Assembly: GCA_964030475.1 (NCBI GenBank)
Contig: CAXIPT010000041.1
Span: 84,855-148,854 of the forward strand
DNA from: Tethya wilhelma
Taxonomy: Eukaryota > Porifera > Demospongiae > Tethyida > Tethyidae
Reading direction: 5' to 3'
DNA length: 64,000 bases
The notes under the pieces were generated by a model that searched no databases, was not told the origin of the DNA, and saw only the letters and a list, made by a program, of their open reading frames with translations. Positions 13,104 to 63,757 of this stretch are shown here, piece by piece. The position numbers and the translations under genes were made by a program. The number at the start of each line of letters is the position of its first letter. Within the stretch, counting starts at the first letter, position 1.

Positions 13104-15823
13104 ATGGAGGTCTCGTATATCGCTCTACTGTTGATTCAAACAGCAGTGTACCTGGGTACCAACTTCAACGGTGTTCTAGGCCAACAAGGTAGGTACTATG
13201 TATTCAAATGGCATGACATAGTTTAAACAGTGTATCTAACCCCACATTATAAAGATTTAGTGTACTAAAAGGGTTATAAAGAAACTAAGCTTGTATTATG
13301 CCAGTGACAGCATACATGCATGGTACAAATGTACCTGAACTTTGAAATTCCCCAGGGTTATGTATCTCCAATATTCACCATAGTAACGTGTGTCTGTGCT
13401 AGCTATTTTAATGTTTTTATTGTGCTACAATTAGATCTAAATTACCAATTAACCTCCACACTGCACGTGCAAAATGACCAATAATATGAACAAGAATGTA
13501 AAAAAATCGTAGTATTGCCATTGTATGATAGTGTCACCGTACAATTTTGTTATGAATTCAACTTGAATTGAAAGGTGCACCTATCCGTATAACTATAGCT
13601 GATATAGTCTTTTGTTTTAATGTTTTCCATTCTTGTACCCAGTTTCTCTTAGGCTTGGTTCAGTGATTCTCACCAACAACAGTCAAGTGGCCATCACTGA
13701 TATCGGAGACCCCAACAATGGAGGTATTCCTCTCACATGCACCACAACCTTCAGACCGTGTTGTAGCAGTCTAGAAAATCGCTATGGAGAGTGGTACTAT
13801 CCTAATGGAGTCCTGGTGCCCAATTCTGGAACTGGGCAAAATTTTTTCCGTGGACGAAGTGATGATGGTGAGGTTCGTTTGAGTCGAAGGAACAACGCTC
13901 TGACTCCACTGGGTACTTTTACCTGTGAGATACCACTGAATGGTCCCACTGATTTAGTGATGCTGACAGTTCAAGGTATATATGTATACGTAGCTAGATA
14001 TATAGTCAATGGTGTGTGTGTGTGTGTGTGTGTGTGTGAGTACATGTATGTGGGTGCTATTCACAATTTCAGAGATCTAGTATGTATCTTCATAACAGTA
14101 ATAAGCAATTAAGTTAAAGTTTAGATTCCCCGAAACACTCTAGCTAGTTTCAATATGATCAAAAGAGAGAAATATTTGATTCTGACTCAACTCCGGAGTA
14201 CAAATTTTCCCTTTCATAACCTCTTATGCCCATTATCCTAAGTTTAGAGTTCACTGTCATCCATTTCACGGTCGTAATCACTCTAATGGCTAGTGTTCAA
14301 TTGTGTGTGTCCAGTTTTGATAGCAACTATACCACCAGACATGTCTGTCAGGCATATACTGCATGCCTATATACAGACCTCCCACACAAAGTCTTTATTC
14401 CAGTGTATTCAATCATGTGGCATAATACCTCCCTTGGGAGTACGGGGTGTTTCCAACATTTGCAAGTCATTCTCGTTAAAAGTTTGTTCATTGGAAATGA
14501 TCTTGAGATATAGCTGGGATCCGAATATTAACCCATACTGCGTGGTCTTTCAAGTTCTAGTTGAATGCTCTTATGTATACTAGCCTCGTACCCAGGCCAC
14601 TCCCTCTTTTTAGTGTTTCATGTTAAAAAGAGGGAGATTACCACTGAGCTATACTAAAATTGACGGGCATTGGAGCAGAGAATAGCAGTATACACTAGCT
14701 ACTATACATAGACACTAGTCGATTTCCAAACTAGATCTTGATACATGATAGCCATAAAACTATAGGTTTTATAAATCTTTTTATTGTTATGTGATTTATT
14801 TTCCAGAATAATAAGCATAATACCAAGAAGTTAATCTCTCTCAAATCATTCACAAACTTACTCCTTAGCTTGATCCTGGAAAGCCCAAAAATATCTTATT
14901 ATAATAATTAAATACTTTGAATTCAATTCTCATGTAGACATCTCACTAACAGCACTGTAAAATTCTACCAAGCATGCAGTCTGTCCACATCTACAAAATA
15001 ATCTTTATTGTTGTTCACGAAAATGTTCAGTGATGCATGACGTGGCAGCTGTTATGTTTCTGTTGTCCTGTTCAGTCTAATGGCTACTATAATAACGTAC
15101 TGGCACATTATTGAGCGCACTTTGCATATAAGTGCCCACTCGAATATTATAACCCATGCCTCGTTGTTTTTGCTCTTGACACTTCATTATTAAGCGCTCA
15201 TGATGATTTTCACTATTGACACAGGGGAAGGGTCAGTTTCTGGACACGTAGACAACGCTTCACCCACAAAAAGAGTCCACATGCTCTAGACAAGTTGTGC
15301 TCAAAATAACGCTCTCCAAAAATTCCGTTGCCTCGTTCAGTTTGAAACATATAGCTCACGTGGCAGTGTATCTTAAGTTATTACGCACATTTTGCTGTTA
15401 AGCGCCTCTTTTCTTCAACTGAATCTGGGATTGGAATGTACCAATATAATTGAAACTCAATCGCGTGCCATACCTCCCTGCTATCATGTGTATCAGATTA
15501 AGTTCATCATTAATTTTTGTATGTCTTTTGTTCTACCTACAGTCATTGAGGCATCTCCAATAACTACTTCTGCATCCACAACTTTACCTCCATTCAGCAC
15601 ACTACAAGCTGAGACGACCATTGCCATGTCAACAGCAGCTGAGACTACCGTTGCCATGACAACAGCAGCAGTGACGACTACTCAAGAACCGACTACCCAG
15701 ATTTTGCCAACTGAGGTTGTAGAAACTACTCAGGTGGAAACTACCCAGACTACATCAGAAGTTACGACTGTAGTAGAGACAACTAGTACTGCAGTAGAAC
15801 CATCAGGTAAGATTACATTGATA

Positions 15824-15896
<73 letters not shown>

Positions 15897-16131
15897 AAAA
15901 AAATCACACAGTCACACACACAAACAATGCGAATACCTTGGCATGTGCAAAACAAACTAACCTACTATCCCACATACATTATAACCTTATAATTATGAAA
16001 ATTCCTTCATTTTGTCAGCAAGGAATGCTACATAATTGTTATTATTAATTTTTATTGACAATGTATGGGGGAGTTGACTTTAATATGCATGACACTACAA
16101 CCAAATTTGAAAAAAACCCAACTTTTTTGCT

Positions 16132-16175
<44 letters not shown>

Positions 16176-19100
16176 TCTCTTAGTCTTGGAAACACTACTC
16201 TTGCCAACAACAGTGAGGTTGTGATCACCGATATCGGAGATCTCGACCAAGGTACCGACCTAGTCTGTTCCACGACCTTTAGACCTTGTTGTAGCAATGC
16301 TGATAATCGTCACGGTGAATGGTACTATCCCAATGGGACATTAGTACCTAATATGGCAGCAGGGGCGGATTTTTTCCGTGGACGAAGTGATGAAGGTTTC
16401 ATCCGTTTGAGTCGAAGGAACAATGCTCTCTCTCCACTGGGTACCTTCACCTGTGAGATACCACTGAGCAGTCCCAGTGATCTAGTGAGACTGACAGTCA
16501 CAGGTATATGAGTTCAAAAACTATTGTCAATACATTTACAGTAAAGTTGTTTTCTACATGTGCTTTCAATGTACTATAATATTATAGCGGGTAATTTTGA
16601 TGGGCTTAAAATTTGGTGAATTTGCATTTTAGCATGTTTGGTGATTTAGCTCCACACACTGCATTGTTTATATACGCGCATGGGAATAATTATAAAACTG
16701 TTTGGTGATTTGAAAAATAATTCAACTATTCGCCAAATTTACCTGCTATACCGTGTCTTAGTCCACATGAAAAATCATTGGAAAAATCTTTGTGATATCT
16801 AGTTGGGATTCGAACCCATGCAGGTCGATCTTTAATTTCTTCCACAATAGGTGTATGCATTCTACTTGACTATAATATTTATTTATTTTTTAATTTTTGC
16901 AGTTATTGAAGCTCCTTCTACAACTGATAGTGTTCTAGTAACAACTGAAAGACCAACAACAATGACCACTATGGGCCAAACTGAAACTACCTCTGTCCAA
17001 ACTGGTGCCACTACTGTCCAAACTGATGCCACTACCATCCAAACTGATGCCACTACTGCATTCCAAACTGATACCACTATTGTCCAAACGGATACAACTC
17101 TAGTTGAAGCAGAAACGACTGCTACAACTGAAACACTCACAACACAACCTCCCACGACTGAAATACCTCCAAGTGGTACGCACATTCCTCATGTCATTCA
17201 TTCATTCTTAGCTATACCAACAAATTAGGTCTTTCCCTATCAAAACTTGTCTAGTCTAAATTCCCCATTACTTAAAGAAACTATGTCACTATATAAGCGC
17301 TGTTTTGTTACGAAAACCAAAATGTATGACGTTTTATGACATACTGTGTTCTATGACCTTTTGTGACATTTTTTGTTTTGTTTCTAGCACAATCTGGGTA
17401 CCTGTTTGGATGCTAGCTATATATATGTGTATGTACCTGTATTGCAACAAAAAATGTACAAAAGGTCATAATTTTATTTTTGGTAACAAAAACAGCGCTT
17501 ATAATAGTGACATAGTTCTTAATTTTAAGTAAAAATTATAATTATTATGCTACGTACCTTTTCCCCTCTCTTTCTTCATACCTATAGTTTCTCTCAGTCT
17601 TGGAAACACTCCTCTTGCCAACAACAGTGAGGTTGTGATCACTGATATCGGAGATATCAACCAAGGTACCGACCTAGTCTGTTCCACGACCTTTAGACCC
17701 TGTTGTAGCAGTACTGATAATCGTCATGGTGAATGGTACTATCCCGATGGGAGACAAGTACCTAATATGGCAGCAGGGGAGGATTTTTTCCGTGGACGAA
17801 GTGACGAAGGTTTCATTCGTTTGAGTCGAAGGAACAACGCTCTCTCTCCACTGGGTACCTTCACCTGTGAGATACCACTGAGCAGTCCCAGTGATCTAGT
17901 GAGACTGACAGTCACAGGTAATTGAAAGATAGTATATAGGGTTAGCCTCGTTCCCAGACAGTGACTCTCTCCTGTGACCTCACACTCATGGTAAAGAAGG
18001 GGAGAGCCTGGGAACGAGCTAGACTAGATAGAGTTAGATTGATAGATTCATGTATGCTGCCACTATATAGTTCATCTGATTTTAGAATGCCGGTAGAAAA
18101 AATCAAGTAACTTTCTGAGTTCTTTCTGATTCTTTCCGATCCAACTGATTTCAAAATCTTAAGCATCATTGGAAAGTGCTCGCTCTCCCTGCAAAACTTT
18201 AATTTCCTATGGGACAAAATAGCTAACTTTTGACAGGTAAGGTGTAGGAAGAGCTGGAAAACCAATCAAAAGAACATGAATCTCATTATTTCACTTCCAG
18301 CAATATTCTCAAACCAGATGGATTTTAGCTAGCCTCGTACCCAAGTTCTCTCCTTTGACCTTATTTTTCGAAGCTAAATATTAAACGTTTGATTCTGATC
18401 TTCTTCATTTGATTCAATCAGATATTTGGATTCAGAACTAACACTTTCATTCACTCTACACACATACAGTTGTGGAACCTCCTACAACTGAAGCACCAAC
18501 CACTACAGCTGAAGAGACTACACAGCCATCACCACTGATGACTACCTCCGAATCCACAGAACCATTCACGACCAGTACTGAGTCATCAGTGACTCAAATG
18601 ACCAGCACGCTCGATAATAATCTCGATTCGGCTCTGTTTCAAGTTCGTCTCACAGGCATTAGCAACTGTATCACCTGGAGAGTGAGTGGATTTTTATTGT
18701 ACTCTATATAGTTTGCTAAACTTTTAACTGTAGTCATATGCTATAATAATGTATAATGATATAATGTGCAATATTGTAAAAAAAAAAAGAAGAAAAAAAA
18801 AGCATAATGTATGGAATAAAGCCTCGCATCCAGCCTCTCTCCTACTGTTTAAGATTGCATAATTTTAAGATCATAATCTCGTGCCTGTGAAATGTCAACT
18901 GTGAACTGTTTATTCTTAACTGTGAACTCTGAACTGTGCATTTTTAACTGAGAAATGTATATTCTTAAAATAAGATAGGAATAAATTTTAAACAGTAGTA
19001 GTTATGATTTTTTTCCTAATTATTACAAAAAAAAATATCCAGGAAAGCAATGCTGTTGAGAAAGCTGAAGATGTACTTGATACAATAGTCACTAACATCA

Positions 19101-19577
19101 GAGATCTTTGCCAATGTGACTTCACACGCTCTCAAATCACAAGAGGTGGATTCCGCTGTTTCCCAGGCTCTTCAAACTCGGTCACCTATCGTGCCGAAAT
19201 CGTAGGCGATTCTCTAACAAGTACCGATCAGCTACTAGCACACATTGAATCTTGGCTGAATAGCGACAGTGCCAATTCTGTCCACATTCAATCGGTCATC
19301 CTAACTGCTGACAGTTCTTGTAGCGTTCAAATTTCGAGCCTAAGTGAAGCAGAGTGCCAAAGAGGTAAAGGAGGATCGGTACCATTGGCGGCCATTGCTG
19401 GTGGTGTGGCAGGAGGTGTGGTGGTGATAGTGGTGTTGGTGATTGCTGTTGTTGTACTGGTCTGTTTGAGAAGAAGACGAGCAAAATACCACTTGGCTTT
19501 TCCACGAGGGTAAGTGTCTTTAGAGAGAAATATGTTATTATAACATCATTTTCTCTGTGTGTGTGAGTGTGTGTGAG

Positions 19578-19648
<71 letters not shown>

Positions 19649-20221
19649 NTCATCTCTTTTTTTTCTTGCAGGAGTGATGATTTTACCAATCATGACGCCA
19701 TGCTAAATGCAGTCTCCTTCACCAACCCATCCCACCATCTCTATGACGATGTACCAAGATCAGGAGGGGCAGCTCGTCACCAAAAACGACGAAAATCCAT
19801 GGACAGAAAACTGAGCATTTCCAGTCTCAAACGAGAAGTGATCAATGTAGAGGCTTCCAATGTCATCATGACAAACCCAAGCACGGGAGTCTACGAGCAG
19901 GTCGATCTTGGACAAGTAGGTTTTGCCGAAACGTCAACTTTCTCCGAGAGAAAAGCGAAAACGGATCCTCTACCGAAACTACCTGGGGAACAGACGCCTC
20001 AAGCTCAGCGCCGGCCTTCAGATTATCTCGTACCCAACGTCAAAAGTAGCAGTCAAATGATACCCAATCCCACGTACGGAGTAGCACCCCCTGGGAGTGG
20101 TCCCGTTCTAGACCCCCCCAAGGATCCTGTGAGCCGACCGATACTACTAGGAGGAAGTGAGGGAGGTGGGAGTGATATGAAGAGTAGTACTGGAGATTAT
20201 GCTGTTATTGACATCAAGTGA
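13104..20221 (+). CDS. class A receptor: three Ig-like domains, Thr-rich stalks, SEA-like module, TM, tyrosine-motif tail
   Basis: Nine exons join to exactly 947 codons plus stop: 13104-13188, 13643-13975, 15543-15806, 16174-16503, 16903-17175, 17588-17917, 18470-18681, 19043-19509 and 19672-20221. Residues 1-28 are a signal peptide. Three Ig-like domains (about 29-139, 228-337, 429-538) share LxCxTTFRPCC, WYYPxG, FFRGRSD, LSRRNNAL and PLGTFTCE. Each is followed by a Thr-rich, mucin-like stretch. Residues 590-720 form a Cys-containing module (SNSVTYRAEI, IESWL, DSSCSV) resembling SEA-type membrane-proximal domains; this is tentative. The TM helix is about 725-750, followed by RRRR. The tail has YDDV, YEQV, DYLVP, NPTY and DYAVI motifs, suited to SH2/PTB or sorting adaptors. 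Ligand unknown. Ectodomain introns are phase 1 and the post-TM intron is phase 2. It is not a family I can name. Confidence 0.85.
15827..15894. repeat. (GA)n microsatellite in a receptor intron
   Basis: A pure GA run directly follows the Thr-rich exon that ends at 15806. It is not coding, because the exon donor GTAAG precedes it. Confidence 0.8.
16795..16880 (-). repeat. tRNA-like (SINE relic) sequence in a receptor intron
   Basis: On the minus strand GGGTTCGAATCCC (16805-16817 in reverse) matches a pol III B box. TAGTCAAGTAG about 55 bp upstream resembles an A box. No clover-leaf with proper acceptor pairing is evident, so it is probably a decayed tRNA-derived element. Confidence 0.35.
17942..18026. 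repeat. palindromic TAGCCTCGTTCCCAG mini-element
   Basis: TAGCCTCGTTCCCAG near 17944 is mirrored by CTGGGAACGAGCTAG near 18010-18026. It sits in the intron after the third Ig-like exon and belongs to the same family as the 8381 copy. Confidence 0.5.
19560..19648. repeat. (GT)n(GA)n microsatellite ending at the gap at 19649
   Basis: A GTGTGAGTGT-type repeat runs into a long GA run and then the n. It lies in the last intron of the first receptor. The related gene copy has the same compound repeat at the same intron (38335-38410), also broken by a gap. Confidence 0.75.
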
Positions 20222-20654: not shown

Positions 20655-20748
20655 ATGAAGTCAATACTTGGTGCCTGTCACATTGGTGTGCTACTAATAT
20701 TGTCACTGTTTGTCATCTTCATGATCAGTCACTGTGCAATGGGACAAT
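20655..20748 (+). pseudogene. orphan receptor leader (signal peptide) exon
   Basis: The 94-bp exon encodes a hydrophobic leader starting MKSILGACHIGVLL and ending MGQ, followed by a GT donor in phase 1. It is the counterpart of leader exons at 39403, 46039, 53397 and 57785. No Ig-like exon follows before the sortilin gene. It is either a relic of a deleted gene or a leader that could splice to a distant receptor body. The latter is speculative. Confidence 0.55.
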
Positions 20749-38330: not shown

Positions 38331-38367
<37 letters not shown>

Positions 38368-38382
38368 CAGTTTATCAAATTN

Positions 38383-39036: not shown

Positions 39037-39402
39037 TCACTTATTATAGTGTGTACAGTCCCTAAAAGTTGTGATACATCAATTATTAATACCAAAAGTC
39101 TGTAATTTTTAATGTGCAATTTTTTAGAATGAAATAGTAAAAATTTGTCATACACTTTTTAAATCATGAGTCTTTGCAATTGTTTATACATTCATTGGAT
39201 GTTCCTAATTGTCAGCTGGTGAATAAGATTATAAAAAACACATCATCATAAAAACAGTAGAGTCATCCAATGAATCTCGCTTTAATAGCTGCAGGTGCCA
39301 ATGATGGGTGGGATACTGTCAATGAATGCATATATATCTAGAATCTGATGTTTTCTCTATCATGCAAAGCAAGATTGTAGCTGTTTAGCAAAATTAATAA
39401 AG

Positions 39403-42400: not shown

Positions 42401-43259
42401 ACGAAATTGTGTAATAATTTTACTCTTTTGTTAGTGTACCTCAGTATACTTATATTATACCAACAGAGAACAATTGCATGTCTCTTGTTACTTCCAATGT
42501 GCAGAAAACTTCATTGATCCTGTCACACCCCTAGTGTGTGACTACAGAGGCATTGAACACACTCTAAAGCATCATGATATCACCTTAACAATCCCTGAGG
42601 GTGCTATTCCTGAAGGAAAAGTGATACACTTTAAACTGGGTGTGGCATTGTATGGTCCCTTCAGTTTCCCTGGTAACACACGTCCAATCTCCCCCATCTT
42701 ATGGCTGTGTCCTCAAGTCGAGATTGAATTTAATGAACCCATCATGGTTACTCTTCCTCACTGCCTGACAGACTTGAATGTACAAGAGTTAGAACAGTTA
42801 GGAGTTACATTCGTCAAGGCTAACCACAATTTTGGAGCAAAAGAGGAAGAAAACATGAAGTTCAACTTTAAACCATACTCAACTAAGTCAGGACAGACTG
42901 AGTATGGCTACAGGAAGAGCCAAGGATTTGCAACCTTGAAGACCAATCATTGCTGCTACATTTGTATGACAGCCAATCAGTCCCCCCTTCTAGCTAGAAG
43001 CATGGGTTTCTGCCTCACTCGTATTGACTATGTTTCTGAGTCATCACTTCATGTGGTCAACTTTTGCATCACATTCTTCTTGAAATCTTGTATAAATGCA
43101 CTCAAGTCCCAGTTTGATGGTTATAAACTCAAGAACATTGAATACAGACGTTTCAAATTCACTGATCAGCTCTCTGAGGATTCAGAATCGAACTTAAAAC
43201 TAACAGTTCAAACTCTCCTGGAAAAGTACCACTGTGAAGTTAAACCACAGCATGGAATG
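39403..43259 (+). CDS. class B receptor, 5' part: leader, one Ig-like domain, TM, ZU5 (frame problem)
   Basis: Exons are 39403-39493 (leader MIQKSILGVCH), 39649-39981 (Ig-like), 40058-40280 (short Thr-rich stretch, TM, YYYRR), 42292-42359 and 42435-43259 (ZU5 and following region). ZU5 shows LTIPEGAIPEGK, LYGPFSFPGNTRPISP and ILWLCPQ. With the family's usual splice site at 42435 the frame is broken by a net 10-nt indel. Skipping exon 42292-42359 and using the acceptor AACAG at 42466 restores it exactly. The intron present in the other class B genes after the TCIK position is absent here. The 3' exons are not downstream; they lie on the contig 34370-38381, whose start duplicates this gene's end. 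Confidence 0.72.
40427..41414. mobile_element. degenerate relative of the TAGGCC hAT-type MITE
   Basis: It starts TAGGCCTGAGTATATTATGCTC and ends CTAGCATAATGTGCCAGGGCCTA, with internal ATTATGCTC subrepeats as in the 22530 and 26608 copies. No clear 8-bp target duplication was found. It lies within the long intron of the partial class B gene. The middle may carry unrelated nested sequence. Confidence 0.45.
41430..42040. mobile_element. long-TIR MITE family B (TTCGGCACATGACTACTTC), rearranged copies
   Basis: Two tandem partial copies in the same orientation (AATTTCGGCACATGACTACT near 41520 and CTGAATTTCGGCACCCGACT near 41840) sit in a receptor intron, with AGTGTAGG and GGGCAGC-type arms. Confidence 0.5.
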
Positions 43260-46038: not shown

Positions 46039-49000
46039 ATGAAGTCTATTGTTGGTGATTGTCATATCCATTATATTATACTACTAACATTGTTACTGTT
46101 AATCATCTTCAGTCACTGTGCAATGGGACAATGTAAGTAAGCTGCATGAGAAAAGTAGCATCTATACATAAGCTAAAGCATGCATGACTGGTCAGTATCA
46201 TGTATACGCTAGAGCTTGAACCCAAAATTTGCACGTACATTGTTTTACTTTGAAGTGACTATGATTTAATAATATCTTCTTCGTATACAGCTCCCACTCT
46301 TAGACTTGGAAACACAATGTCCCTGTGCAACAATAGTAAAGTTATGATCACTGATATCACAACTGTTGATGATGGTAGTGCACTAATCTGTACCACTCCC
46401 TTTAGACCATGTTGTTCAACCCTCCCTAATCGCCTTGGAGAGTGGTACTATCCTAATGGAACAATGGTACCTAATAATGCAACTGGTTATGGATTTTGGC
46501 GTGGACGAAGTGATTATGGTGAAGTTCGTTTGAGTCGTAGGAACAACGTCTTGTCTCCCCTAGGAACTTTTATCTGTAAGATACCACTGAGGAATCGTAC
46601 TGATCTAGTGAGACTGATGGTTACAGGTAATTTTTTGATAATAATGATAAATAAGTAACGTTAAAATTATTTTTTACTCTCTCTGCTAATTGCAGTTTTT
46701 AAGGATTTAGATGAGAAACCAACAGTTATGGCTTCAACAACTGCTCTTCCTACTAGTCAAACTTCAATGACCGATGTAACTGCTACAAGCCAAATTTTGA
46801 AGACTGAAGCTCCTACTAATCAAACTTCAATGACTAATAAAACTGCTACAAACCAAAGTTTGAAGACTGAGGCTCCTACTAATCAAACTTCAATGACCAA
46901 TGAAACTGCTACAAGCCAAATTTTGACGACTGAAGCTCCTACTAATCAAACTTTAATAACCAAAGTTTTTGCTAATCAAACTGGTTTGACGACCGAAGAT
47001 AAAACTTCAATGACTGAAGGTGAACCTGTATTTCCAAATACAGCAAAAATAGGTGTTGCTATTGTAGTTGTCATCATAATACTAAGTCTTCCCACTGGAG
47101 TGTGCTTATTAATAGCAATGAAATACAGAGCAAAATTACGATTGAATTTTGATGATAGGTATGTAAACAACCATTAATTTTAACAGCATGATGACTCTTA
47201 ATTACTTTCACATCATCATTTCCTTGATTGATTTACTCTAATGATAACAGTACGCAATGGCTCAGTCACAAAAGTGAGCAAACATGCAAGATATACGTAT
47301 ATTGCTATAGAATAACTGTAATGTGGCCATGTGCATGAGTATGTGTTAATTATTTGCGTGTTACGTATTCACATCAAAAAATTGTCATATTGCAGAAATG
47401 GTATCTTAATGTCTGAGCGTGATACCCTGATCTATCATACTTCATCATCACAAATTGTCATAAAAGGAAGAAAAAATGGTCACAAATCAAAGATCTTTGA
47501 AGGTATCACTTTAACCCATAAGTAAATAATTGGTATTCGCACAACTCTAACAGTGGTGTATATGAGAGTGAGTGCAAGTATATTTTCATTGCATGCACAT
47601 AACTATTAGCATATTGTGTATTATATAACTTTTATTCTTTTTGTCAGTGTACCTCAGTGCCTATCGCAAACAGAGAACAGTTGTCTCTCACTACTACCAA
47701 TGTGCTGAAGACTCCGCCCACATCCCCTTTATTGATCCGATCACAGTCCTAGAGTGTGATCACAGAGGCATCAAACACACCCTAGAAGATCACAACATTA
47801 CCTTGACGATCCCTGAGGGTGCTATTCCTAAAGGGAAAATGATAGACTTTGAACTGGGTGTGGCATTGTATGGTCCCTTCAGTTTCCCTGACAACACACG
47901 TCCCATCTCACCCATCCTGTGGCTGTGTCCTCAGGAGGAGATTAAATTCAATAAACCCATCATGGTGACTCTTCCTCACTTCCTGACAGACCTGAGCGTG
48001 AAAGAGCTAGCACAGTTGAGAGTTTCATTTGTCAAGGCCGACCACAATGAATATTCTGGATCAAAGGAGAAGCAGAATTTGATGTTCAACTTTAAAAGAT
48101 GTGAGAATAAAATTACTATGCCTGTGTTCAGCTACAAAGAGAAGCAAGGATTTGCAACCTTGAAGACCAAACATTGCTGCTTTATTTGTCTGACAGCTAA
48201 ACAATGCCCTGTCCTAGCTAGAAACATGGGTTTCTGTCTTTCTCGTATCGACTATGTTTCTGAGTCATCACTTCATGTGGTCAACTTTTATGTCACTTTT
48301 TTTCTTGAAACCTGTATAAAGGTACAATCATAATATTATAAAATGCATAGTCTACTTGATTATCTTCTAAAATCAATGCAGGTACTCAAGTCTCAGTTTG
48401 CCACTTATAGATTGGTTAACATTAAACAGCACCGTTTCAATTTTAAGGATGGTGTTGATGATTCGGAAACAAGCATAAAACTAACAGTTCAAAATCTCCC
48501 TGATAAGTACCATTGTACAGTTGAACCACTGGACGGAATGGTAAAGTATAATAAACTAAAATAAAACAAAACAAAGCTAAAAGCAACAACAACAGCAAGT
48601 AATTTAAAATTTGAAGAAACATAATATCAATTTCTTTGTACATTATGCCTGTATCCACATGCACACATTGCATGTTCAAAACCAGATTGAAAAATCTGCT
48701 GTTGACTTCTGGCAGCGAAAGTGCAGCCAAGATGAACTGAGGCTTGAACACAAAAGTGGTATATACCCTCCAAAGGTTCAAGTGAGCTTCAGACCGCTTG
48801 GAAACGCTCAAGAGTTTTGTACTGTGTTAGTAGCAGTTATTGGGGGTGATCGCAATTTGAACTCAGAAATCGTTCTCCCTCTTGGTTAGTGGATCATATT
48901 CATGTATCACAATAAAATTATTGATGAAGCAATAATTGTGTTTTATATAGTTTCATGCTTCCCTCTATCACTGAATGATGCCAGTGCCAGTGCAAGAAGA

Positions 49001-49042
49001 ATTATGCCACCAAATGGTATACCAATATTGACTACCAATTAT

Positions 49043-49085
<43 letters not shown>

Positions 49086-49415
49086 ACTGGTTATTATTAT
49101 TAAAGTAAAATCAAAGTATTAATACTTTTATTTGTAGTTCTAACAGAGCGAGAACACCTCAAAATTTGTGGCTACATAAGGGTTATGAATAATGAAGACA
49201 TCATCCTTCTTGGCCAGGCTCTTGGCCTGCTACGATCAAATCTCAAACGAATGGCGACCCTTCCTAATGACATGATAGATAAGTGGCTCCTTGAAGCAGA
49301 TGATGTCAGGGAGACAAGTGGACCTCCAACATGGAACAGTCTGTGCAAGGCTTTGAGGGAGATAGACCAGCCTGGGATTGCAGTTAACATTGAATCAAAA
49401 GTCAAACTCAATTAA
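46039..49415 (+). CDS. class B receptor: leader, Ig-like domain, Thr/Asn-rich stalk, TM, ZU5, UPA-position region, death-like domain
   Basis: Nine exons join to exactly 791 codons plus stop: 46039-46132, 46291-46626, 46696-47158, 47396-47502, 47648-48321, 48382-48540, 48686-48884, 48951-49016 and 49138-49415. Residues 1-31 are the leader. The Ig-like domain (32-143) has FRPCC, EWYYPNG, FWRGRSD and LSRRNN. A stalk with about four copies of a TEAPTNQTSMTN-type repeat follows, rich in N-glycosylation sites, then a TM helix near 262-286. ZU5 (about 350-450) shows LTIPEGAIPKGK and LYGPFSFPDNTRPISP. A beta-rich region occupies the UPA position. The death-like domain (about 715-785) has LLGQALGLL and GPPTWNSLCKAL. 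The order TM-ZU5-UPA-death equals UNC5 netrin receptors, but there are no thrombospondin repeats and the ectodomain differs. Ligand and pathway are unknown; the death fold suggests apoptotic or inflammatory-type signalling. Confidence 0.88.
49046..49081. repeat. (GA)n microsatellite in the penultimate intron
   Basis: A GA run lies between the 66-bp exon and the death-like-domain exon. Confidence 0.8.
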
Positions 49416-49837
49416 TATACAAAAATTGATTATGAAAAATTATTATAGTTAAGTAACTGCAGTAGTTTGCTTCCATAATAATAAATTTTCTAAAGAATCT
49501 TCATGAAGCAATTCCAAGCTTTACTTGCTATGATGAGATCCTAGCTGTAACAGTGTAAACAGACCATTCAAGTTAATTTTGTGAACATAAGGTTTGACCA
49601 CAGGGGAATCCCCCATATACACACCCACACACAAATAATACACTTTACATGGCTGAAAAATTGTAATTTTTATGGCTATTGTAATATCCGTTCCATTAGA
49701 GTTAACATTTGTCTTTTCATTATGCGGTTGTAATGTGTGGAAATTTTTGTGTCATAAATTTTAAATCAGTCTTAAAGTTTTTATTATTCATTGAATACAT
49801 GTCCTTGTCATTGAATAAGATTAGTGAAGACATACCT

Positions 49838-49969
49838 GCACCAGTGGCGGCCATTACTGGTGAAGTAGCAGGAGGTGTGGTGTTGACAGTGCTGTTGGTT
49901 GTTGCTGTTGTTATACTGGCCTGTTTGAGAAGAAAACGAGCAATAATAATTATACCAGTTGGCTTTTAA
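49838..49969 (+). pseudogene. relic of a class A transmembrane exon
   Basis: APVAAITGEVAGGVVLTVLL and LACLRRKRA match the TM segment of receptor 1 (VPLAAIAGGVAGGVVV, LVCLRRRRA), then a stop. Just upstream (49785-49835) lies a fragment of the block normally found before leader exons, directly fused to it. This shows a deletion that removed the ectodomain exons. Confidence 0.65.
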
Positions 49970-53396: not shown

Positions 53397-56300
53397 ATGA
53401 AGTCTATTCTTGGTGCCTGTCACATCAATGTGCTACTAGCATTGTCACTGATGTGTGCAATCTTCAGTCACAGTACAATGGGACAAAATTGTAAGCTAAG
53501 AGAATCAATAGTAGCTATACATACCTGAGCAGCATGCTGAGGAATATTGCATTACATGCATGCATGGTTATGGATAGTATACTATGAAATGTTTAAGCTA
53601 AGATTTGCTTTGGATACCAAGTGACTACAATTTTGCATGCATCTTTCCTCTACACTACAGTAACAGCTGTCACTCTTAGTCTTGGAAGCACACTTTTGGC
53701 CAACAATAGTGAAGTTGTGATCACAAATATCACAACCTATGATAATGGTAGTGCTCTGATCTGTAATACTACCTTCAGTCCATGCTGTTCAACCGTTCCT
53801 AATCGCCATGGAGAGTGGTACTATCCTAATGGAACAGTAGTACCTAATATGGCAAGGGGGGAAGACTTTTGGCGTGGACGAAGTGATGATGGTGAAGTTC
53901 TTTTAAGTCGTAGGAACAATGCCATGTCTCCGCTGGGAACCTTCTATTGTGAATTACCTCGCAACAGTTCCAGTGACCTAGTGAGATTGACAGTTCAAGG
54001 TAAATATTTTATTACAACCTTTTAACTTGACATTTATTCTATTGCTTTGTCATTATATATATATTGCAGTTATTGAAGCAATCTCCACAACTGATAATAT
54101 GCCAGTCACAACTGAAAATCCAACAATGACCACTACCATCGAAACTGACATCACAGTCCCAAATGATACCACTACTATCCAGACTACCGCCCAAACTGAT
54201 CCTACTATTAGCATCCAAACTGATACTACTGTTCAAACTGATGTCACTACTGTCCAAATTGATGCTACTACCATCCAAACTGATACCACTGCTGTCCAAA
54301 CTGATGCTACTACCATCCAAACTGATACCACTGCTGTCCAAACTGATCCTACTACCATCCAAACTGATGCTACTACGATCCAAACTGAGGCCAATACTAT
54401 CCAAACTGATACAACTGTCATAGTCGAAACACAGAAGACTTCAACCATCAAAGCCATGACTACACAACCTCCCAAAATAATGCCAAGTGGTACAAAACAT
54501 TTCAGCCTTTCTTAGCTACTATTATTTCCAATAGAAATTTTTGCATTTGTTGATGACACTAATATTTCCCACCACTTGTTTTTCTATTACTGTAGTTTCT
54601 CTCAGTCTTGGAAACACATCTCTAGCCAACAATAGTGAAGTTGTGATCACTGATATAACAAGTCGCACTGATGGTGATACCCTAATATGTACTACTACTT
54701 TCAGACCATGTTGTGCTAGCATGGAAAACCGTTATGGGAACTGGTACTATCCTAATGGAACAGTGGTACCTAATAATGCAACTGGTTATGGTTTTTGGCG
54801 TGGACGAAGTGATGATGGTGAAGTTCGTTTGAGTCGTAGGAACAACGTCTTGTTTCCACTGGGAGCTTTCACCTGTGAAGTGCCACTCAACAGTTCTGTA
54901 AATGAGACACTGACTGCTAGAGGTACTGCTATACTATAACAATTTTTGGTATGCATGCATGCAGGTATACATTAACTATTGCTTGTTATGCAGTTGTTGA
55001 GGAGCTAATCACCACCATTGAGCCAAGATTAGCTCTGTTTCAATTGCATCTGCTTCAAATCCAAGAGTGCTGTGCCGCATGGATAGTAAGTATTGAGACA
55101 ATTATTATTTAATATAAACAAACAAGTAATAAAAATTTCATAAAAAATACTAGCAGTGTAGGAATATGGGCAGTGCTGTAAAAAGGAAGGAAACAAGGCT
55201 ATAGAACTTTAAATTTAGGCACATGATTACTTTATTTTTGCGGTCTCTATCTCATATAACCATGATCATGAATTAAAATTCTGATTCAGGGGCCAATTAA
55301 GTTATGAATTATTCAAGTATATAAATTAAAAAGCATACAATACAGACAACCTACGTGAACTTGGAACACTTTGGAATAGTTAAAATGAAGTAGTCATGTG
55401 CCTAAATTTAAAGTCCTAGCCTTGTTTCCTTCCTTTTTACAGCACACTATTAAAAATGATGTGTCCCCAACACGTTAGGTGTGTTCAGACAAGTGCACTG
55501 CCCATTCCTACACTGCTAATTTTTATGAAGCTCATTCCTTCTATATGTACTACCATAAGTATGATTATTACTATTATGTACTTTTGACTTCTTCTGCACA
55601 CATGATTATTGTTTATTACTATTTAGGACAAAAATAGTCCAAAAGAAACAATCACTGAAGATCTTGTACAAAGTGTCAGTGGATTGGACAGTAGCAGCCA
55701 AATAAGAAATGAAACATTTGTGTGTTCTGATAATTCAGCCAATTCTGTCACATATCGGGCTCAAATTGAAAGCAAATCTTCAAATATTAGTACCAAACAG
55801 TTGTTAGCATACATCGAACGATGGCTAGAAAATGGCAGCAATGGGGAGCAATTCGTCTTTACAAGTTTGGGAATCAACAGTTCATGTGTGCTAAGTATTC
55901 CGAGTTTTGAAACAGAATTATGTGACCAGCACAATCGAACGTCAACAACTTGTATTGGGTCCACCTATTCAGATTCAATGAAGGAAAAGATTATAATAAT
56001 TATAGTTAGTATAGTTTGTGTTATAATAATTATTGTGGCGCTGATTGGCTTGATAGCACTAACTGTTGTAGCTGTAAAGAAAAAGAGGCACTTCAAAGGA
56101 AAATTGTCATTAAAATTTAGCATAAGGTATGTCGTATATTCATAAGTAATAAATGTATGCATGCATCATAAACTGGTAATGTCATACAATGTAATACATT
56201 GACCTCTTTGTTTTCCTTTTTGTTTGGTATATAGCTATAAGAGGTTCAATAGCCATAGAACAGACTAATGTGTATACTAACATGAAGCAAAATGCATATA

Positions 56301-57026
56301 TAGATGATATTGATGATTTTCCTCCCTCTATACAGTGGTATGTATGGGATTCACGACTCACAAGCTGTACGACTGCATCATATAGGAACGTACAATGAAT
56401 CATTTGATTTGACAACTGGCAATGAACCTATTGATAGGAGATACTTTGAAGTGACGATACCAGCTTCAACTGACAATGCTCAGCCACAGCAAGAAGATAG
56501 GAGATACTTTGAAATGACACTACCTAGGACTAACACTCAACCACGACAGCGAAAAGAAGATGAAGAAAATCAAAGAGACCTTATATTTGCAAACCAGTCA
56601 ACAGTTAGTACAGACACCGAAGGCTATGTACGAGTTGACATTATAAAGAAAGATGTGAATGAGGCTGTGCAAAGCTTGGAGCAAGTGGATTCACCCCTTG
56701 GTACTAGTGGACAATATGGTACTAAAATGACAGGACAAATGCTGAGTAATGAGAATAGTAAAACTTCTAGCAAAGATCCACATCCGCAGCAAACTGGGCT
56801 TGATCGGCAAAAGTTGTCAATACCAACAGTAAACTTTTTGATAACTGAGAACCCTGCTTATGTACCAAGCGAACAATTATTGTTATCTAGTAGTGGAAGG
56901 AACGACCAGTCCACAGCTGAAATATGTACAAGAGGAGGATTTGCTACTAAAAGTGGACAATATGGGAGTGGTCTACCATCCATTAGTGAAGAAACTGAAC
57001 TGAAAAGAGATTCAGACTATACATAA
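53397..57026 (+). CDS. class A receptor: two Ig-like domains, Thr-rich stalk, SEA-like module, TM, tyrosine-motif tail
   Basis: Seven exons join to exactly 818 codons plus stop: 53397-53490, 53667-53999, 54070-54489, 54596-54922, 54994-55085, 55627-56126 and 56336-57026. The leader (1-31) is followed by Ig-like domain 1 (32-142), a Thr-rich stalk of IQTDATT-type heptad repeats (143-282), Ig-like domain 2 (283-391) and a Cys-containing SEA-like module (about 395-530, with NSVTYRAQI, IERWLENG and NSSCVLSI). The TM helix (about 544-572) is followed by KKKR. The tail has RRYFEV and RRYFEM (YxxM, PI3K-SH2 type), GYVRV and an NPAY motif. NPxY is shared with receptor 1, although the tails are otherwise unlike. 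Phases match receptor 1. A family B MITE sits in the intron before the SEA/TM exon. Role unknown. Confidence 0.85.
54160..54415 (+). repeat. coding minisatellite (21-bp unit) in the Thr-rich stalk
   Basis: Units of the form ACTACCATCCAAACTGATGC repeat about nine times, encoding T-I-Q-T-D-A/T-T heptads. A shorter array of the same unit lies in receptor 1 at about 16990-17100. Confidence 0.8.
55115..55545. mobile_element. long-TIR MITE family B in a receptor intron
   Basis: Left arm ACAAGTAATAAAAATTTCAT, GTGTAGGAATATGGGCAGTG; right arm in reverse near 55400-55540, interrupted by a short insertion (CACTATTAAAAATGATGTGT). Confidence 0.65.
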
Positions 57027-57784: not shown

Positions 57785-57875
57785 ATGAAATTTATTCCTG
57801 GTGCCTGTCACATTGATCTGCTACTAGCATTGTCATTGTGTGCAATCTTCAGTCACAGTACAATGGGACAAAATT
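57785..57875 (+). CDS. receptor leader exon without a visible Ig-like exon
   Basis: The 91-bp exon encodes MKFIPGACHIDLLLALSLCA and ends in MGQN with a phase-1 GT donor. No Ig-like or TM exon is present before the gap at 58893. It could be the start of the class B gene whose 3' exons are at 59374-62411, with the middle lost in the gap, or an orphan like 20655. Confidence 0.5.
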
Positions 57876-59373
57876 GTTAGTAAGTCAGTACTAGTTGTCA
57901 TTTATAGGTCACAAGTTTTTAGTGTGTATAACCTGAGGGCAGCTGTATGTATTCCCGAGGGCACAGCACGAGGGAATTTACAGCTGCACGAAGGTTACAA
58001 TAATATTACATATACACACTAAAAACCTATAGTACAGTGAATGGCCTGTGCTACAATCAACCATTACTCTGATTGTACAAAAGCTTTCCGAAGTAATTCT
58101 AGAAATAGAAGATTCAAATTATATATGTACTTCAGTTTGGTACAGGTTTCATGACAAAATGATTCAAAATAGAAGTCTTATCATTTTTTAGAAGTTTAGT
58201 TTGGATTTTCACTAGCTGTCTATATTTCTCTGGGGTATGAACAACGGTATGAAGAACAAAATCGTACAGCAGTATTGGATTGTTGGAGCAGTGTAAATCA
58301 GTGTTAAGTGAGAGCCACTAAATTAACACCAGTGATCAGGCTTTCTCAATTATCTGCTGCTACTATACTACTACTACTACTGTCCTTTTTCAGCTAGAAC
58401 TTTTCCATATGAGGTTTATATAGTGTGTATAAGGTTATTGTGACCTGAGAGCAGCTGTATGTATATTCAGGGCACAGCACAAAGAAAAGGCTTACATACA
58501 GCTGCACAAAGGCTACAATTACATACACACTAAAAACCTATAGTACTGTACTATATTAGCTCATACACCCTAGGTATCATACGTACGGTAGAGTAAACGA
58601 TCAATTTTCGGCCGTCTCAATTTTCGGACGCCGTTTCTGACTTGCCTGTAGATGCTACTGCTTCGAGACTACTACCAGAAGATAGCCCATGAAAAATTAC
58701 CTAAGGTTGTACAAACTTCAAGCCCCACCCACCTACTGTAAGGCTTCCATGTGCCGAAAAAGAGGTGTGTCCGAAAAAACATAAAATCGGACAAAATAAT
58801 CGTATTTCGAACGGCAGCTCCAAGAGACCTATAAACTTATGCCAGAGCTGCCAAATCTGGAAATCAGGAAGTTCAGTCTTTCTGCTACTGATNCCTGTCT
58901 GTTATAGTTTACTCTATTGCTTTAGTAGCCAAGTGATTAGCGAGAAATTTGAACCAATGCAATGAATATTAAGCTACGGTACTATTATACAGATCATCGC
59001 AACACAACACTGAAAATCCATATCAGGGATCAAGAATAAAAATGAAGTAGTCATGTGCCGAAATTGAGACCCTGCCTTGTTCCAATACTTTTTAATGCAC
59101 TGCCCATTCCTACACTGCTTTTTTTTTTGAAATAATTATTAGCACCCCCCTGAGCTAAATCCTAGACACGCCACTGGTCTAACTGATTAAAAATTTTCAT
59201 GTGCCGAAATTCAGAGACTTGTCTTGTTTCCCTGCTTTTACAGCACTGCCCATTTCTACACTTTTCATTTTTATAAAATTTTTACTACTTGTATTATTAT
59301 GAGTTGCATGTGTGTGTTATGTCAAACAATTTCCATTGAGATGATTGACACACACACTTGTAATACTTTGCAG
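57876..59373. other. no exon; repeats and gap at 58893
   Basis: Two related stretches (AACCTGAGGGCAGCTGTATG near 57930 and GACCTGAGAGCAGCTGTATG near 58443) show a local duplication. Family B MITE fragments occur at 58990-59130 and 59190-59295. No Ig-like exon was found. Confidence 0.4.
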
Positions 59374-62300
59374 TAAGGGCAGAAGTACCTCATATGATAA
59401 TGGCTATGTCTTTCCTGCCGATTTATCACTAAGAGATTCAACGCTAGTTAAATCCAAAACAAGAATAAATGAGTACAAATCAAAAATTTTTGAAGGTATG
59501 ATGCATGTATAATTATTATGAGATCCAGAGAGTGCACTATCATAATTATATACATTGTGTCTTTTGTCAGTGTATCTCAGTAATTATCGTCAACAAAGAA
59601 AAGTTGTCTCCCATTACTACCAATGTGCTGAAGACTCCGCCCACATCCCCTTCATTGGTCCAGTCACAGTCCTGGTGTGTGATCATAGAGGCATCAAATA
59701 CACCCTAGAGGATCATGACATCACCTTGACAATCCCTGAAGGTGCTATTCCTAAAGGAAAGGTGGTACACTTTGAACTGGGTGTGGCATTGTACGGTCCC
59801 TTCAGTTTCCCTGACAACACTCGTCCCATCTCTCCCATCTTATGGCTGTGTCTTCAAGAGGAGATTGAGTTTGAAAAACTTATCATGGTGACTCTTCCTC
59901 ACATCCTGACAGATCTGAATGAACAAGAGCAGATGGGGGTTACATTTTCCAAGGCTGACCACAATGACTATTCTGGATCAAAAGAGGAAGGAAACGTGAA
60001 GTTTAACTTTAAATCATGTTCAACTGAGTCAGGACAAATTGAGTTTGGCTACAGAAAGAGCCAAGGATTTGCAACCTTGAAGACTGAACATTGCTGCTAT
60101 ATTTGTCTGACAGCCAAACAGGCTCAGAATCCAGATCTAGTTAGAAAGAATGGCTTTTGTCTCTCTCGAATTGACTCTGTATCGGAATCCACTCATGTAG
60201 TCAACTGCTGTGTAACATTTTGTTTATCAACTTGTGACGAGGTACACTGACCTTATTATTAATTATTATCTTAATCTATTCACTTTTGTGTGTGCAGGCC
60301 ATGATGTCACAGTTTCCATATAAGACGGATGTTCGTAAATATTACTTTACTTTCAAACAACAAGATGATAGTGGTACTAAGCCACATTTAACAATTGCTA
60401 TCCAAAATGACTTCCAGGACAAGTACCGTGGTGAAATTCACCCTCCTGATGGGAAGGTATATGATTAACATTAAGAAGCATTCTATTTAGATCTATAGCT
60501 AATTTATTTATTATGAGTTGCAATATTAATTATTGATATACAGATAATGATGTCTGACGTTGATTTCTGGGAGCATGGCTGGGATACAAACTTAATGAAG
60601 TACATGCACAAAGCAGAGCTCTACCCTCCTAGGGTTACAATACACTTTATACCACAAGGAGCTAACAATGGGTTTCAGTGTACTGTAAACTTGAAAGTTT
60701 ATGGACATTCAAATGACCGCAACCTAGACAGTGAAGTTAATCTTCCACTGAGTAAGTAATCGTAGCCCATTAATTCCCCACCTCCTGAGCAGTGAGCACC
60801 CTTTGTCTATAGATACATGTATATGCATACCACGTATCATACGTACGGTAGTACGTATAGTAGGAATGGGCCGACTGTCCCATAGACACAATACAAAATG
60901 TTTATCACCATAAAAATCTAGCAAGGCAAAGTTAAACCTTCAAACTTGCTCAGAAGCTCTCTCAGACAGATTAACAAACGCTTGCATAGCCTAAAACTCA
61001 CAGAAGCTTTCATAAGCACTCGTAGCGAGCGCTAGTTAGAAGCTACACCCACGCAATTTTGTTCTCACTTACTTACTTACTTACTTACTGACTTACTTAC
61101 TTGAAAGCGATTTCCAGAGAAACAAAAGATGTTGAGCTTGTTTTGACTATACAGAACAACTTGTTCTCATCTGGACTAGTGCCTTTTGCACTCGCTTTCT
61201 GCCCAAATGTGTTGAAACAAGAGCTAGAAAGCTTTAAAACTTAATATATAAATTCATACACTTCAATGCAGCCATCTTTTGTAGGTAGAGGTCAAAGGTC
61301 GTTATCTATCCACGTGGCATTTAATGCGCATGCGCATTAGCCTAATAGTACTGCTACTCAAGCTTTTTGTAAGGACTTACTATTAAAGTCCCTGATATAG
61401 TCTCCTCACTTTAGTGTTGAAAAAAGTGAATAAACAAGTATAGTAAAAATTTCATAAAAATTACAGTGTAGGAATGGGCAGTGCGGTAAAAAGTAAGAAA
61501 ACAAGGTATGTCGCAATTTCGGCACATGACTACTTCATTTTTTTATACTCAAGTAGAATATTGAGGATTAACTAAACATATTTGCCTAGATTGCTTGCTT
61601 ATATACTTTGCCTCACTTAGCTAGCTAACAGTTAAGTTCCACACCTCAATTAATCCATCGGCACTCCCTGTCAGTAATCCGACCATAAGGTGGCACACTC
61701 TGTAGCATACTGATTGGCATGCATGATCTATGAATTCAAACCATTATTTTATCCAGGCATGTACAACATATTGTTTGAAGCATATCAATATTTATTTTCA
61801 TATGACAGGATGTATGAGGAATCAAAAATGAAAATGAAGTAGTCATGTGCCGAAATTGCGACATACCTTGTTTTCTTACTTTTTACCGCACTGCCCATTC
61901 CTACACTGTAATTTTTATGAAATTTTTACTATACTTGTATAAAAGGATGCATAACTTTTACATTATATTAATTTATTCAGCATCTCGCTTGCTGGTTCCT
62001 CAGCTGAATCCTGCCAGTGAACATGTTACACATAAACAACAAACAAAGAGTAAGTTATCAATCACACTGAATTGAAATTAAGTTTGGTTTGTCACCATCT
62101 TATTGCTATAAATAATAGAACTTTCACAAAGAGAACACTTGAAGATCTACGAATATCTCCAAGATCTGGAAGAACGTGACATCACTCTGTTAGGCCAAGC
62201 TCTAGGCCTACTGAGACCAAATATCAAGAAAATGAAGGACCTTCCTGAAGATATGATAGATGCCTGGCTCAACCAGAAAGATCATGTTTTAATCACAAGT

Positions 62301-62411
62301 GGTCTACCAACTTGGCAGAGTTTGTGCAATGCTTTGAATTCAAAACCAGTTGGTCATCATGGAATTGCTGACAAAATTAAAGAAAATGGTATGATCACAT
62401 TTTCAATTTAG
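59374..62411 (+). CDS. class B receptor, 3' part: ZU5, UPA-position region, death-like domain
   Basis: Six exons are in phase: 59374-59495, 59571-60241, 60298-60456, 60544-60751, 61981-62049 and 62119-62411. The first continues from a phase-2 post-TM junction (the AG|T pattern seen in the family). ZU5 shows LTIPEGAIPKGK, LYGPFSFPDNTRPISP and ILWLCLQ. The UPA-position exon encodes DVDFWEHGWDTN and YPPRVTIHF. The death-like domain has TLLGQALGLLRPN, LPEDMIDAWL, GLPTWQSLCNAL and GIADKI. Leader, Ig-like and TM exons are not found after the gap at 58893; the leader exon at 57785 may belong here. The intron before the 69-bp exon contains MITEs of families B and C. Function is inferred only as death-fold signalling. 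Confidence 0.78.
60836..61080. mobile_element. MITE family C copy in a class B intron
   Basis: It starts ATCATACGTACGGTAGTACG, AGTAGGAATGGGCCG and continues through AGCGAGCGCTAGTTAGAAGC. It is nearly identical to 63757-64000 and related to 50225-50420. A (ACTT)n tetranucleotide run follows. Confidence 0.6.
61434..61940. mobile_element. long-TIR MITE family B in a class B intron
   Basis: Left arm ACAAGTATAGTAAAAATTTC to CGGCACATGACTACTTC; right arm in reverse complement ends GAAATTTTTACTATACTTGT. The centre is about 300 bp without coding capacity. Confidence 0.7.
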
Positions 62412-62903
62412 TCTGATTCATGTTAATGGTGCATGAATTTTGTCTGTATACATGCAGAGTTTACCAGAAGGTGAATCCAATGACTGCATTTGAATGAGCT
62501 AGTGATACACTTAATTTGACTTAAATTGCTCCAAAAGTGGGGTCACTATATATACAGCTACCTGAGTTTGCATGATTTGCCACTGATTATTATAATGATA
62601 TCGATGTACATATATAGTTTTTATTGTGAGGTTTGTAATGATTGCATAAAATTTTGTGCCAATTGATTAATTATTCATGTATGTCCTTATCTGTGAATAA
62701 GATTATTAATTAAAAGACACACCCTACACATCAACATAATATTCAGCTTTGAACAACTGCAGAGTCATGCAATGAATTAACTATTACGTAACTTTAACAC
62801 AGGTGGGAGGATCACATGATTGCATGCCAATATATACTTGTACGTGCTTTGAGCTTCATCAATAAGCTATAGATTATATAAATTTTACATCTTTCCCATA
62901 CAG
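62412..62903. other. intergenic, with conserved leader-upstream block but no leader exon
   Basis: 62650-62880 matches the block upstream of leader exons (GTGAATAAGATTATTAAT, GAGTCATGCAATGAATT), but the leader exon itself is missing before the Ig-like relic. Confidence 0.45.
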
Positions 62904-63757
62904 CCATTTCTCTAAGTCTTGGAAGCACACCTTTGGTCAACAATAGTGAAGTTGTAATCACAAATATCACAACCTGATAATGGTAGTGCACTGATCTGTA
63001 ATACTATACCTTCAGTCCATGCTGTTTAACTGTCCCTAATCGCCATTTAATAATTATTGTCATTATAAATATTGCAGTTATTGAAGCAATCTCCACAACT
63101 GATAGTATCACCATTGAGCCAAGATTAGCTCTGTTTCAATTGCATCTGCTTCAAATCCAAGAGTGCTGTGCCGCATGGATAGTATATAAGTATTAAAGAA
63201 TTTAGATGATTATTATAATATTATGAACAAAAAAGTAATAAAATTTTCATAAAAATTAGCAGTGTAGGAATGGACAGTGCTGTAAAAAGGAAGAAAACAA
63301 GGCTAGGACTTTAAAATGAGGCACGTGACTACCAATGTTATTACTATTTAGGACAAGAATATTCCGAAAGAAACAATCACTGCATGAGGATCTTGTACAA
63401 AGTGTCAGTGGATTGGACAGTAGCAGCCAAATAAGAAATGAAACATTTGTGTGTTCTGATAATTCAGCCAATTCTGTCACATATCGGGCTCAAATTGAAA
63501 GCAAATCTTCAAATATTAGTACCAAACAGTTGTTAGCATTCATCGAAAGATGGTTAGAAAATGGCAGCAATGCATGGAGATCAAGTCGTCTTTACAAGTT
63601 TGGGAGTCAACAGTTCATGTGTGCTAAGTATTCCGATTTTTGAAACTGAATTATGGGACCAGCACAATCGAATGTCAACAACTTGTATTGGGTCCACCTA
63701 TTCAAATTCAATGAAGGAAAAGATAATAATAATTATAGTTAGTATAGTTTGTGTTAT
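62904..63757 (+). pseudogene. condensed, broken class A receptor copy
   Basis: The order of receptor 53397-57026 is retained but collapsed. An Ig-like exon start (LSLGSTPLVNNSEVVITNIT) has a 2-bp deletion and is cut after about 140 bp. It runs directly into the Thr-exon start (VIEAISTTD), which is fused to the SEA-start sequence (TIEPRLALFQLHLLQIQECC). A family B MITE half follows, then a SEA/TM exon from 63351 with an insertion creating an in-frame stop. The TM coding sequence is interrupted at about 63757 by MITE family C. No leader exon. Clearly non-functional as read. Confidence 0.75.

Follow-up and report, generated by a model that had tools for sequence, protein, structure and literature searches.

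The final 64 kb of contig C41 (148,854 bases) in the genome assembly of the sponge Tethya wilhelma (GCA_964030475.1; contig CAXIPT010000041.1, positions 84,855 to 148,854), hereafter the window, carry on the plus strand between 13.1 and 63.8 kb a series of tandem membrane receptors with seven intact copies, and one relic, of an exon encoding an immunoglobulin (Ig)-like module. Our analysis supports the reading of this locus as a tandem, turning-over receptor cluster in which one ectodomain module is combined with differing cytoplasmic outputs. Judged by their sequences, the receptors belong to a real, large, and apparently undescribed family, with at least 150 copies of the module in the genome. 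The genome searched comprises 124.6 Mb in 204 contigs (C1 and C41 below are contigs, and L-numbers designate genomic stretches that were read directly). The window contains the following genes and module exons.

13104..20221, plus strand: G1, an open nine-exon model with GT-AG introns, 947 amino acids, and no stops.
13643..13975, plus strand: first Ig-like exon of G1, phase 1-1.
16174..16503, plus strand: second Ig-like exon of G1.
17588..17917, plus strand: third Ig-like exon of G1, a recent duplicate of the second (synonymous divergence, dS, 0.12).
34370..36196, plus strand: 3' part of G2, with a copy of a 744-bp repeat, an exon at 35244-35442, and a death-like exon at 35916-36196.
39403..43259, plus strand: 5' part of G2, with a leader, an Ig-like exon at 39649-39981, a transmembrane exon, and a ZU5 exon (E 2.1e-7).
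46039..49415, plus strand: G3, an open eight-exon GT-AG model of 769 amino acids.
46291-46626, 47648-48321, and 49138-49415, plus strand: Ig-like, ZU5 (E 2.9e-7), and death-like exons of G3.
53397..57026, plus strand: G4, an open seven-exon model of 818 amino acids.
53667-53999 and 54596-54922, plus strand: Ig-like exons of G4.
57785..62411, plus strand: G5, with a leader at 57785-57871 (E 4e-5) and juxtamembrane, ZU5 (E 1.8e-5), and death-like exons at 59374-62411 in frame.

The module exon is approximately 330 bases long, and in the models each copy is flanked by phase-1 introns; phase-1 boundaries on both sides are the usual sign of a shuffled extracellular domain. An earlier reading of the window (the original prediction) held that several genes share this exon, and its view is borne out: all four motifs that it quoted (FRPCC, WYYPNG, RGRSD, and LSRRNN) are present in five of the seven exons, with FSPCC replacing FRPCC in 53667-53999 and WYYPDG replacing WYYPNG in 17588-17917. 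Searched against both strands of the window, a profile of the seven exons recovers all seven (E <= 1.8e-60) and the relic at 62882-62974 (E 3.7e-6), and the next match on either strand has an E-value of 0.021. The copies also vary as had been proposed, with three Ig-like domains in G1, two in G4, and one each in G2 and G3, and with relics and the G5 remnant alongside. The leader that was thought to be common is found in G2 to G5, and in an orphan copy at 20655, but the leader of G1 differs.

Four of the models (G1 to G4) are open over 669-947 codons, and all of their introns are GT-AG. G1 encodes a leader, three Ig-like domains alternating with threonine-rich stalks, a membrane-proximal cysteine domain, a transmembrane segment, and a tyrosine tail with one NPxY and three YxxV/I motifs; this tail occurs at two places in the genome, both on C41. 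The order in G4 is a leader of the G2/G3 type, two Ig-like domains, a Thr/Gln stalk, a membrane-proximal domain, a transmembrane segment, and its own tyrosine tail, which has one NPxY motif and no second copy in the genome. Choosing the nearer of two acceptors in G4 would put a stop approximately 11 codons past the transmembrane exon. G3, in turn, encodes a leader, one Ig-like domain, an Asn/Thr stalk, a transmembrane segment, a ZU5 domain, two linking exons, and a death-like exon, and ZU5 (PF00791) scores above the Pfam cut-off in G2, G3, and G5. In G5, no Ig-like or transmembrane exon was found between the leader and the juxtamembrane exon, a gap that contains a single N at 58893.

The membrane-proximal domain (exons 19043-19509 and 55627-56126 in the window) has conserved CQC, F-x-C, and VTYR motifs and 114 matches in the genome. 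It has no PDB match up to E 5, and its Pfam matches were confined to single members of the set (best 0.0082), with no convincing family. The name "SEA-like" was dropped on these grounds, and the domain appears to be undescribed.

The two final exons of G2 sit upstream (35.2-36.2 kb) of its remaining exons (39.4-43.3 kb). Because a 744-bp segment is present at both places with 744 of 744 bases identical (34370-35113 and 43175-43918), and because each copy adjoins a single N (34369 and 43919), the displacement is most simply read as a loop in the assembly or as a tandem unit that collapsed. Joined to the displaced exons, G2 reads through 669 amino acids without a stop, using a shifted acceptor at 42445 that lies 10 bases past the one homologous to G3; the homologous acceptor leads to a stop at codon 266. 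The possibility that G2 is a pseudogene was provisionally set aside, since the displaced exons and the shifted acceptor give an open frame. In G2, the intron that follows the ZU5 exon of G3 and G5 is missing, and the frame continues (42445-43259).

Module trees indicate that tail type does not follow module type. The Ig-like exons of G2, G3, and the second copy of G4 group together in the protein tree (support of 96/84), in which 13 of the 22 inner branches are unresolved, and G1 is split off from G2-G4 when the seven exons are compared as DNA (99/98); with seven labelled rows, a single tail-type change suffices in 4 per cent of 200 bootstrap trees. Since the Ig-like exons of tyrosine-tailed G4 fall with those of the death-type genes G2 and G3, and not with those of G1, the outputs were swapped onto one ectodomain. 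The stalk and membrane-proximal domain of G4 resemble those of G1, and G4 is best read as a recombinant with a 5' end of the G2/G3 type and a 3' end of the G1 type. The cluster also contains an orphan exon and relics, as follows.

20655..20747, plus strand: orphan leader exon of the G2-G5 type (tblastn E 1.6e-8).
37842..39043, plus strand: relic of a duplicated G1 3' end (85.8 per cent nucleotide identity to 19103-20228), with the tail exon open and the membrane-proximal domain broken.
49706..49966, plus strand: relic fragment of a G1-type transmembrane exon (tblastn 71 per cent to that of G1, E 3e-4).
62882..63830, plus strand: relic of a G4-type gene, with both the Ig-like exon and the membrane-proximal domain broken.

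In the genome as a whole, 150 of 209 candidate module places were scored, and all 150 match. Contig C1 holds 107 of them, 70 fall within C1:25.1-26.0 Mb, and the largest cluster packs 43 copies into 0.22 Mb. Members outside the window were recognized as chains of exons on the same strand rather than from transcripts. The original prediction of two intracellular outputs fits the two tail classes of the window but falls short of the family, in which phosphatase, ITAM, and ITIM-like tails (see below) bring the output types joined to the module to at least five. In L060 (minus strand), FN3 domains, the module, an Ig domain, and a transmembrane segment are followed by a tyrosine phosphatase, and L061 (plus strand) has the same order. 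We also looked for a linkage of phosphatases and modules in neighbourhood counts, which drew on 150 of the 209 module candidates, 150 of 167 phosphatase matches, all 38 ZU5 matches, and 82 of the 114 membrane-proximal matches. Within 10 kb, phosphatases lie downstream of the module on the same strand in 17 of 150 cases, upstream in 21, and on the opposite strand in 9; these counts fail to show linkage, and the phosphatase output therefore rests on L060 and L061.

L062 encodes three modules: the first two are separated by stalks, Ig and FN3 domains come between the second and the third, and the third is followed by further Ig domains, the membrane-proximal domain, a transmembrane segment, and a tail. 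In this tail (within 7041-8160), YEDLTKYSEAYEEI has the pattern of an immunoreceptor tyrosine-based activation motif (ITAM; shuffle P-value of 0.004, uncorrected for ten motifs in nine tails). A second copy of this tail, in L051, is 94 per cent identical and retains the motif. In L030, the module, an Ig domain, and a transmembrane segment precede a tail with sites resembling the immunoreceptor tyrosine-based inhibitory motif (ITIM; shuffle P-value of 0.105) and switch motif (ITSM; P-value of 0.046), and tails of this type occur at 12 places, of which 9 fall in C1:25.70-25.98 Mb. The transmembrane exon that joins the module to ZU5 was found only on C41, in G2 and G3, and among the places listed no contig but C41 has a ZU5 exon up to 15 kb downstream, on the same strand, of a module; the fusion of Ig and ZU5-death parts therefore looks local to C41.

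We considered and rejected the possibility that the C41 cluster is a haplotig of the one on C1: even the nearest modules on C1 reach no more than 68 per cent identity with the first copy of G1, and the tails of G1 and G4 have no copy outside C41. Related modules also occur in other public assemblies (208 proteins, of which the best 120 were listed, with up to 68 per cent identity to the first copy of G1), which shows that the family extends beyond this genome. A protein search with full-length G3 returned just two ZU5 proteins among 7997 candidates scored, and a death-domain protein search returned 45 unnamed proteins without Pfam labels. As a separate observation, the death-like exon has at least 150 places in the genome (150 of 188 candidates scored) versus 38 ZU5 matches, an excess pointing to a large death-fold repertoire. 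On the reverse complement of L057, from base 522, a 1476-codon frame with what look like ubiquitin-like repeats lies upstream of a ZU5-death gene.

We propose that these type I receptors most likely serve recognition of self/non-self or of microbes, rather than a housekeeping role, with one module sending different signals, and we hold this view with slightly better than even confidence. The module, raised on its mucin-like stalk, would bind a surface ligand of a neighbouring cell or a microbe, and the ligand would cluster the receptors. In G1 and G4, binding would lead to tyrosine phosphorylation and to the recruitment of SH2 or PTB proteins; in G2 and G3, it would free the ZU5-death tail and so be coupled, in either direction, to signalling through death folds, with cell death or inflammation as the outcome, much as UNC5 or PIDD do. 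The latter coupling is suggested by analogy with UNC5B, which is reported to induce apoptosis without ligand (PMC8358048), and with CARD8 and NLRP1, in which autoproteolysis occurs via a ZU5-like domain (PMC3210808), as described in the available portions of both sources. Cells may read the balance of these outputs, and an integrating receptor system is plausible because relatives have ITAM, ITIM-like, and phosphatase outputs. We put forward only tentatively the fuller version of this proposal, a sponge self/non-self system in which one undescribed Ig-like module is combined with outputs of the ITAM, ITIM, NPxY, phosphatase, and ZU5-death types. Recognition of one class of ligand would then be linked directly to cell death through one arm and to a kinase/phosphatase balance through the others.

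Several observations weigh against these proposals. Splice sites in all of the gene models were picked by homology and open frame rather than from transcripts. The activating and inhibitory styles of tail foreseen by the original prediction are absent from the window tails examined for ITAM and ITIM (the whole tails of G1 and G4 and the juxtamembrane parts of G2 and G3) and are instead represented by ITAM and ITIM/ITSM-like motifs on relatives elsewhere in the genome; moreover, the ITIM-like sites in the L029, L030, and L015 tails are weak (shuffle P-values of 0.006-0.17). Counts of YxxV/I motifs are close to those in shuffled tails (P-values of 0.05 for G1 and 0.43 for G4). The terminal exon of G3 has no Pfam match; among its relatives, 16 of 40 match Pfam Death (PF00531) weakly (best E 0.005), and the next family matches at most 2 of 40. 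Compared with the PDB by profile, this exon finds no death domain below E 1 (the chain PIDD-CC is at 1.3), and we regard its identity as a death-like domain as probable. The linking exons occupy the position of a UPA domain and are not recognized as such by Pfam. By eye, the other ZU5-death genes read in the genome carry different N-terminal parts. Finally, the ratio of nonsynonymous to synonymous substitution rates (dN/dS) is 0.23-0.54 over the 21 pairs of the seven whole exons, which indicates purifying and not positive selection; the predicted rapid evolution of the locus is not supported as regards protein change over whole exons.

The same selection pattern would suit a role in adhesion or guidance, in which G2 and G3 are sponge UNC5-like receptors, the phosphatase relatives are LAR-like, and the family acts in cell sorting and tissue building instead of non-self recognition. 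We consider this alternative possible, if somewhat doubtful. Cytoplasmic ZU5 and death-like domains are arranged as in UNC5, the PDB chains nearest to the ZU5 domain are ZO-1 (E 0.12) and UNC5B (E 0.19), and the phosphatases bear FN3 and Ig ectodomains. However, it would be unusual for guidance receptors to come in many tandem copies with relics, exchanged tails, and ITAM/ITIM-like relatives. In addition, a scan of the complete G2 protein at E <= 0.1 matched no TSP1 domain (in G3, the scan covered the Ig-like exon and the cytoplasmic part).

We take the module to be a divergent Ig domain, which is quite probable although the sequence evidence for the fold is weak. Among 81 sequences, C33, W51, G91, and C95 are invariant or conserved in at least 90 per cent, and these fit the Ig pattern of a cysteine in strand B, a tryptophan in strand C, and G-x-[FY]-x-C in strand F. 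When profiles are compared, the module aligns to the genome's ordinary Ig domains in the canonical register, including the strand C tryptophan and the strand F motif (P-value of 0.022), whereas control comparisons with FN3 and with the membrane-proximal domain gave P-values of 0.81 and 0.23, respectively. Nine of the ten PDB matches of the 81-sequence profile (A5) are Ig domains, six of them NCAM, none significant (E 0.17-0.97); the remaining match, adiponectin, scores best (E 8e-5) but consists of three weak copies of one repeat. In L062 the module is found among ordinary Ig and FN3 exons. That the module is some other disulphide-rich beta domain without an Ig fold is improbable in the light of these results, yet several searches favour it. 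None of the 81 relatives matches a Pfam Ig family below 0.02 (the nearest are PVRIG at 0.025 and CD47 at 0.13, in one member each), and the comparison with Ig domains of the same genome yields a probability of only 2 per cent. A 14-sequence profile (A1) ranks designed propeller repeats at the top (E 2e-5 and up), with Ig domains, all of them TIM proteins, making up 6 of its 25 matches.

The assembly also bears on how much of the diversity is genuine. Single-N seams are located at 3141, 5479, 10570, 19649, 22133, 26444, 32582, 34369, 38382, 43919, and 58893 in the window. Several sit at dinucleotide repeats, and some adjoin longer repeats (direct with 744 of 744 bases identical, direct with 99.7 per cent identity over 604 bp, and inverted with 94 per cent identity); the perfect or near-perfect repeats are at 10570, 34369, and 43919 and the inverted repeat at 32582. 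Contig order at repeat-flanked single-N seams is uncertain. It is nevertheless quite unlikely that decay and misassembly explain much of the diversity, with few working genes and dual output as a by-product of unequal crossing over: the orphan leader, the relics at 37.8-39.0, 49.7, and 62.9-63.8 kb, the repeat-bearing seams, and a G2 that needs displaced exons and a shifted acceptor to be open would all fit, but four models remain open across 669-947 codons with GT-AG sites, and dN/dS between exons of different genes is well under 1.

Among known systems, the TIM family (TIM-1 and TIM-4) combines a V-type Ig domain with a threonine-rich mucin stalk and a tyrosine tail; the receptors described here differ in having multiple Ig copies and ZU5-death forms, and the PDB profile match to TIM-1 is not significant (E 0.017 with 14 sequences and 0.36 with 81). 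G2 and G3 share with UNC5 an Ig-like ectodomain, a single transmembrane segment, a cytoplasmic ZU5 domain, and a probable C-terminal death-like domain, but they have one undescribed Ig-like module, an Asn/Thr stalk, and tandem copies, with no TSP1 found and UPA unrecognized. The Ig-like domains of a receptor tyrosine kinase of the sponge Geodia cydonium are reportedly polymorphic. This kinase, cited in the accessible part of PMC12018476 for its Ig-like domains on a sponge signalling receptor, is similar by description rather than by sequence comparison and differs in its kinase output. Among the kinase matches listed in our genome search (123 of 1398 candidates scored), none lies in C1:25.1-26.0 Mb or on C41. 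Sponge Ig-TIR receptors likewise pair Ig ectodomains with an innate-type intracellular domain, to judge from the sections available of PMC8242945 and PMC12909245, but theirs is TIR instead of ZU5-death, and their Ig domains are detected by Pfam models. The Botryllus FcoRs are described in the available excerpt of PMC12065747 as clustered type I Ig allorecognition receptors whose haplotypes vary in gene content and whose tails have ITIM, hemITAM, or YxxI/L/V motifs, and the same excerpt reports motifs of these types for Hydractinia alr. Clustered Ig-like receptors and ITAM/ITIM-like tails (here on relatives and not on G1 or G4) are therefore features shared with Alr and FcoR/fester. The Ig modules differ, the excerpt mentions no ZU5-death tail, and polymorphism and function are shown in those systems, whereas our case is built on sequence. 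Searches of the open-licence literature, judged by titles and starts of abstracts, gave no account of the module or of a sponge Ig-ZU5-death receptor; most subscription journals lie outside this coverage, so this is weak evidence of novelty.

Outside the receptor genes, the minus strand at 3982-4419 carries a cyclooxygenase (prostaglandin G/H synthase) exon (PF03098, E 4.5e-15), whose frame matches prostaglandin G/H synthase 2 in the PDB (E 4e-33). By eye, 3558-3956 on the same strand is probably the next cyclooxygenase exon, with no Pfam match at 0.01. The segment 30249-33765 is an inverted duplicate of an apparent multi-pass membrane protein (a 596-codon frame on the minus strand, 30649-32436) for which Pfam gave no convincing family.

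A graft transcriptome study of Amphimedon describes, in its available portion, self/non-self discrimination in sponges as remarkably specific and infers a polymorphic genetic system (PMC5450542). If the proposed recognition function is correct, the family, through its 150 or more module copies and their ITAM, ITIM-like, phosphatase, and death-type outputs, would supply concrete receptor candidates, and ITAM/ITIM-style signalling would be extended from cnidarians and tunicates to sponges.

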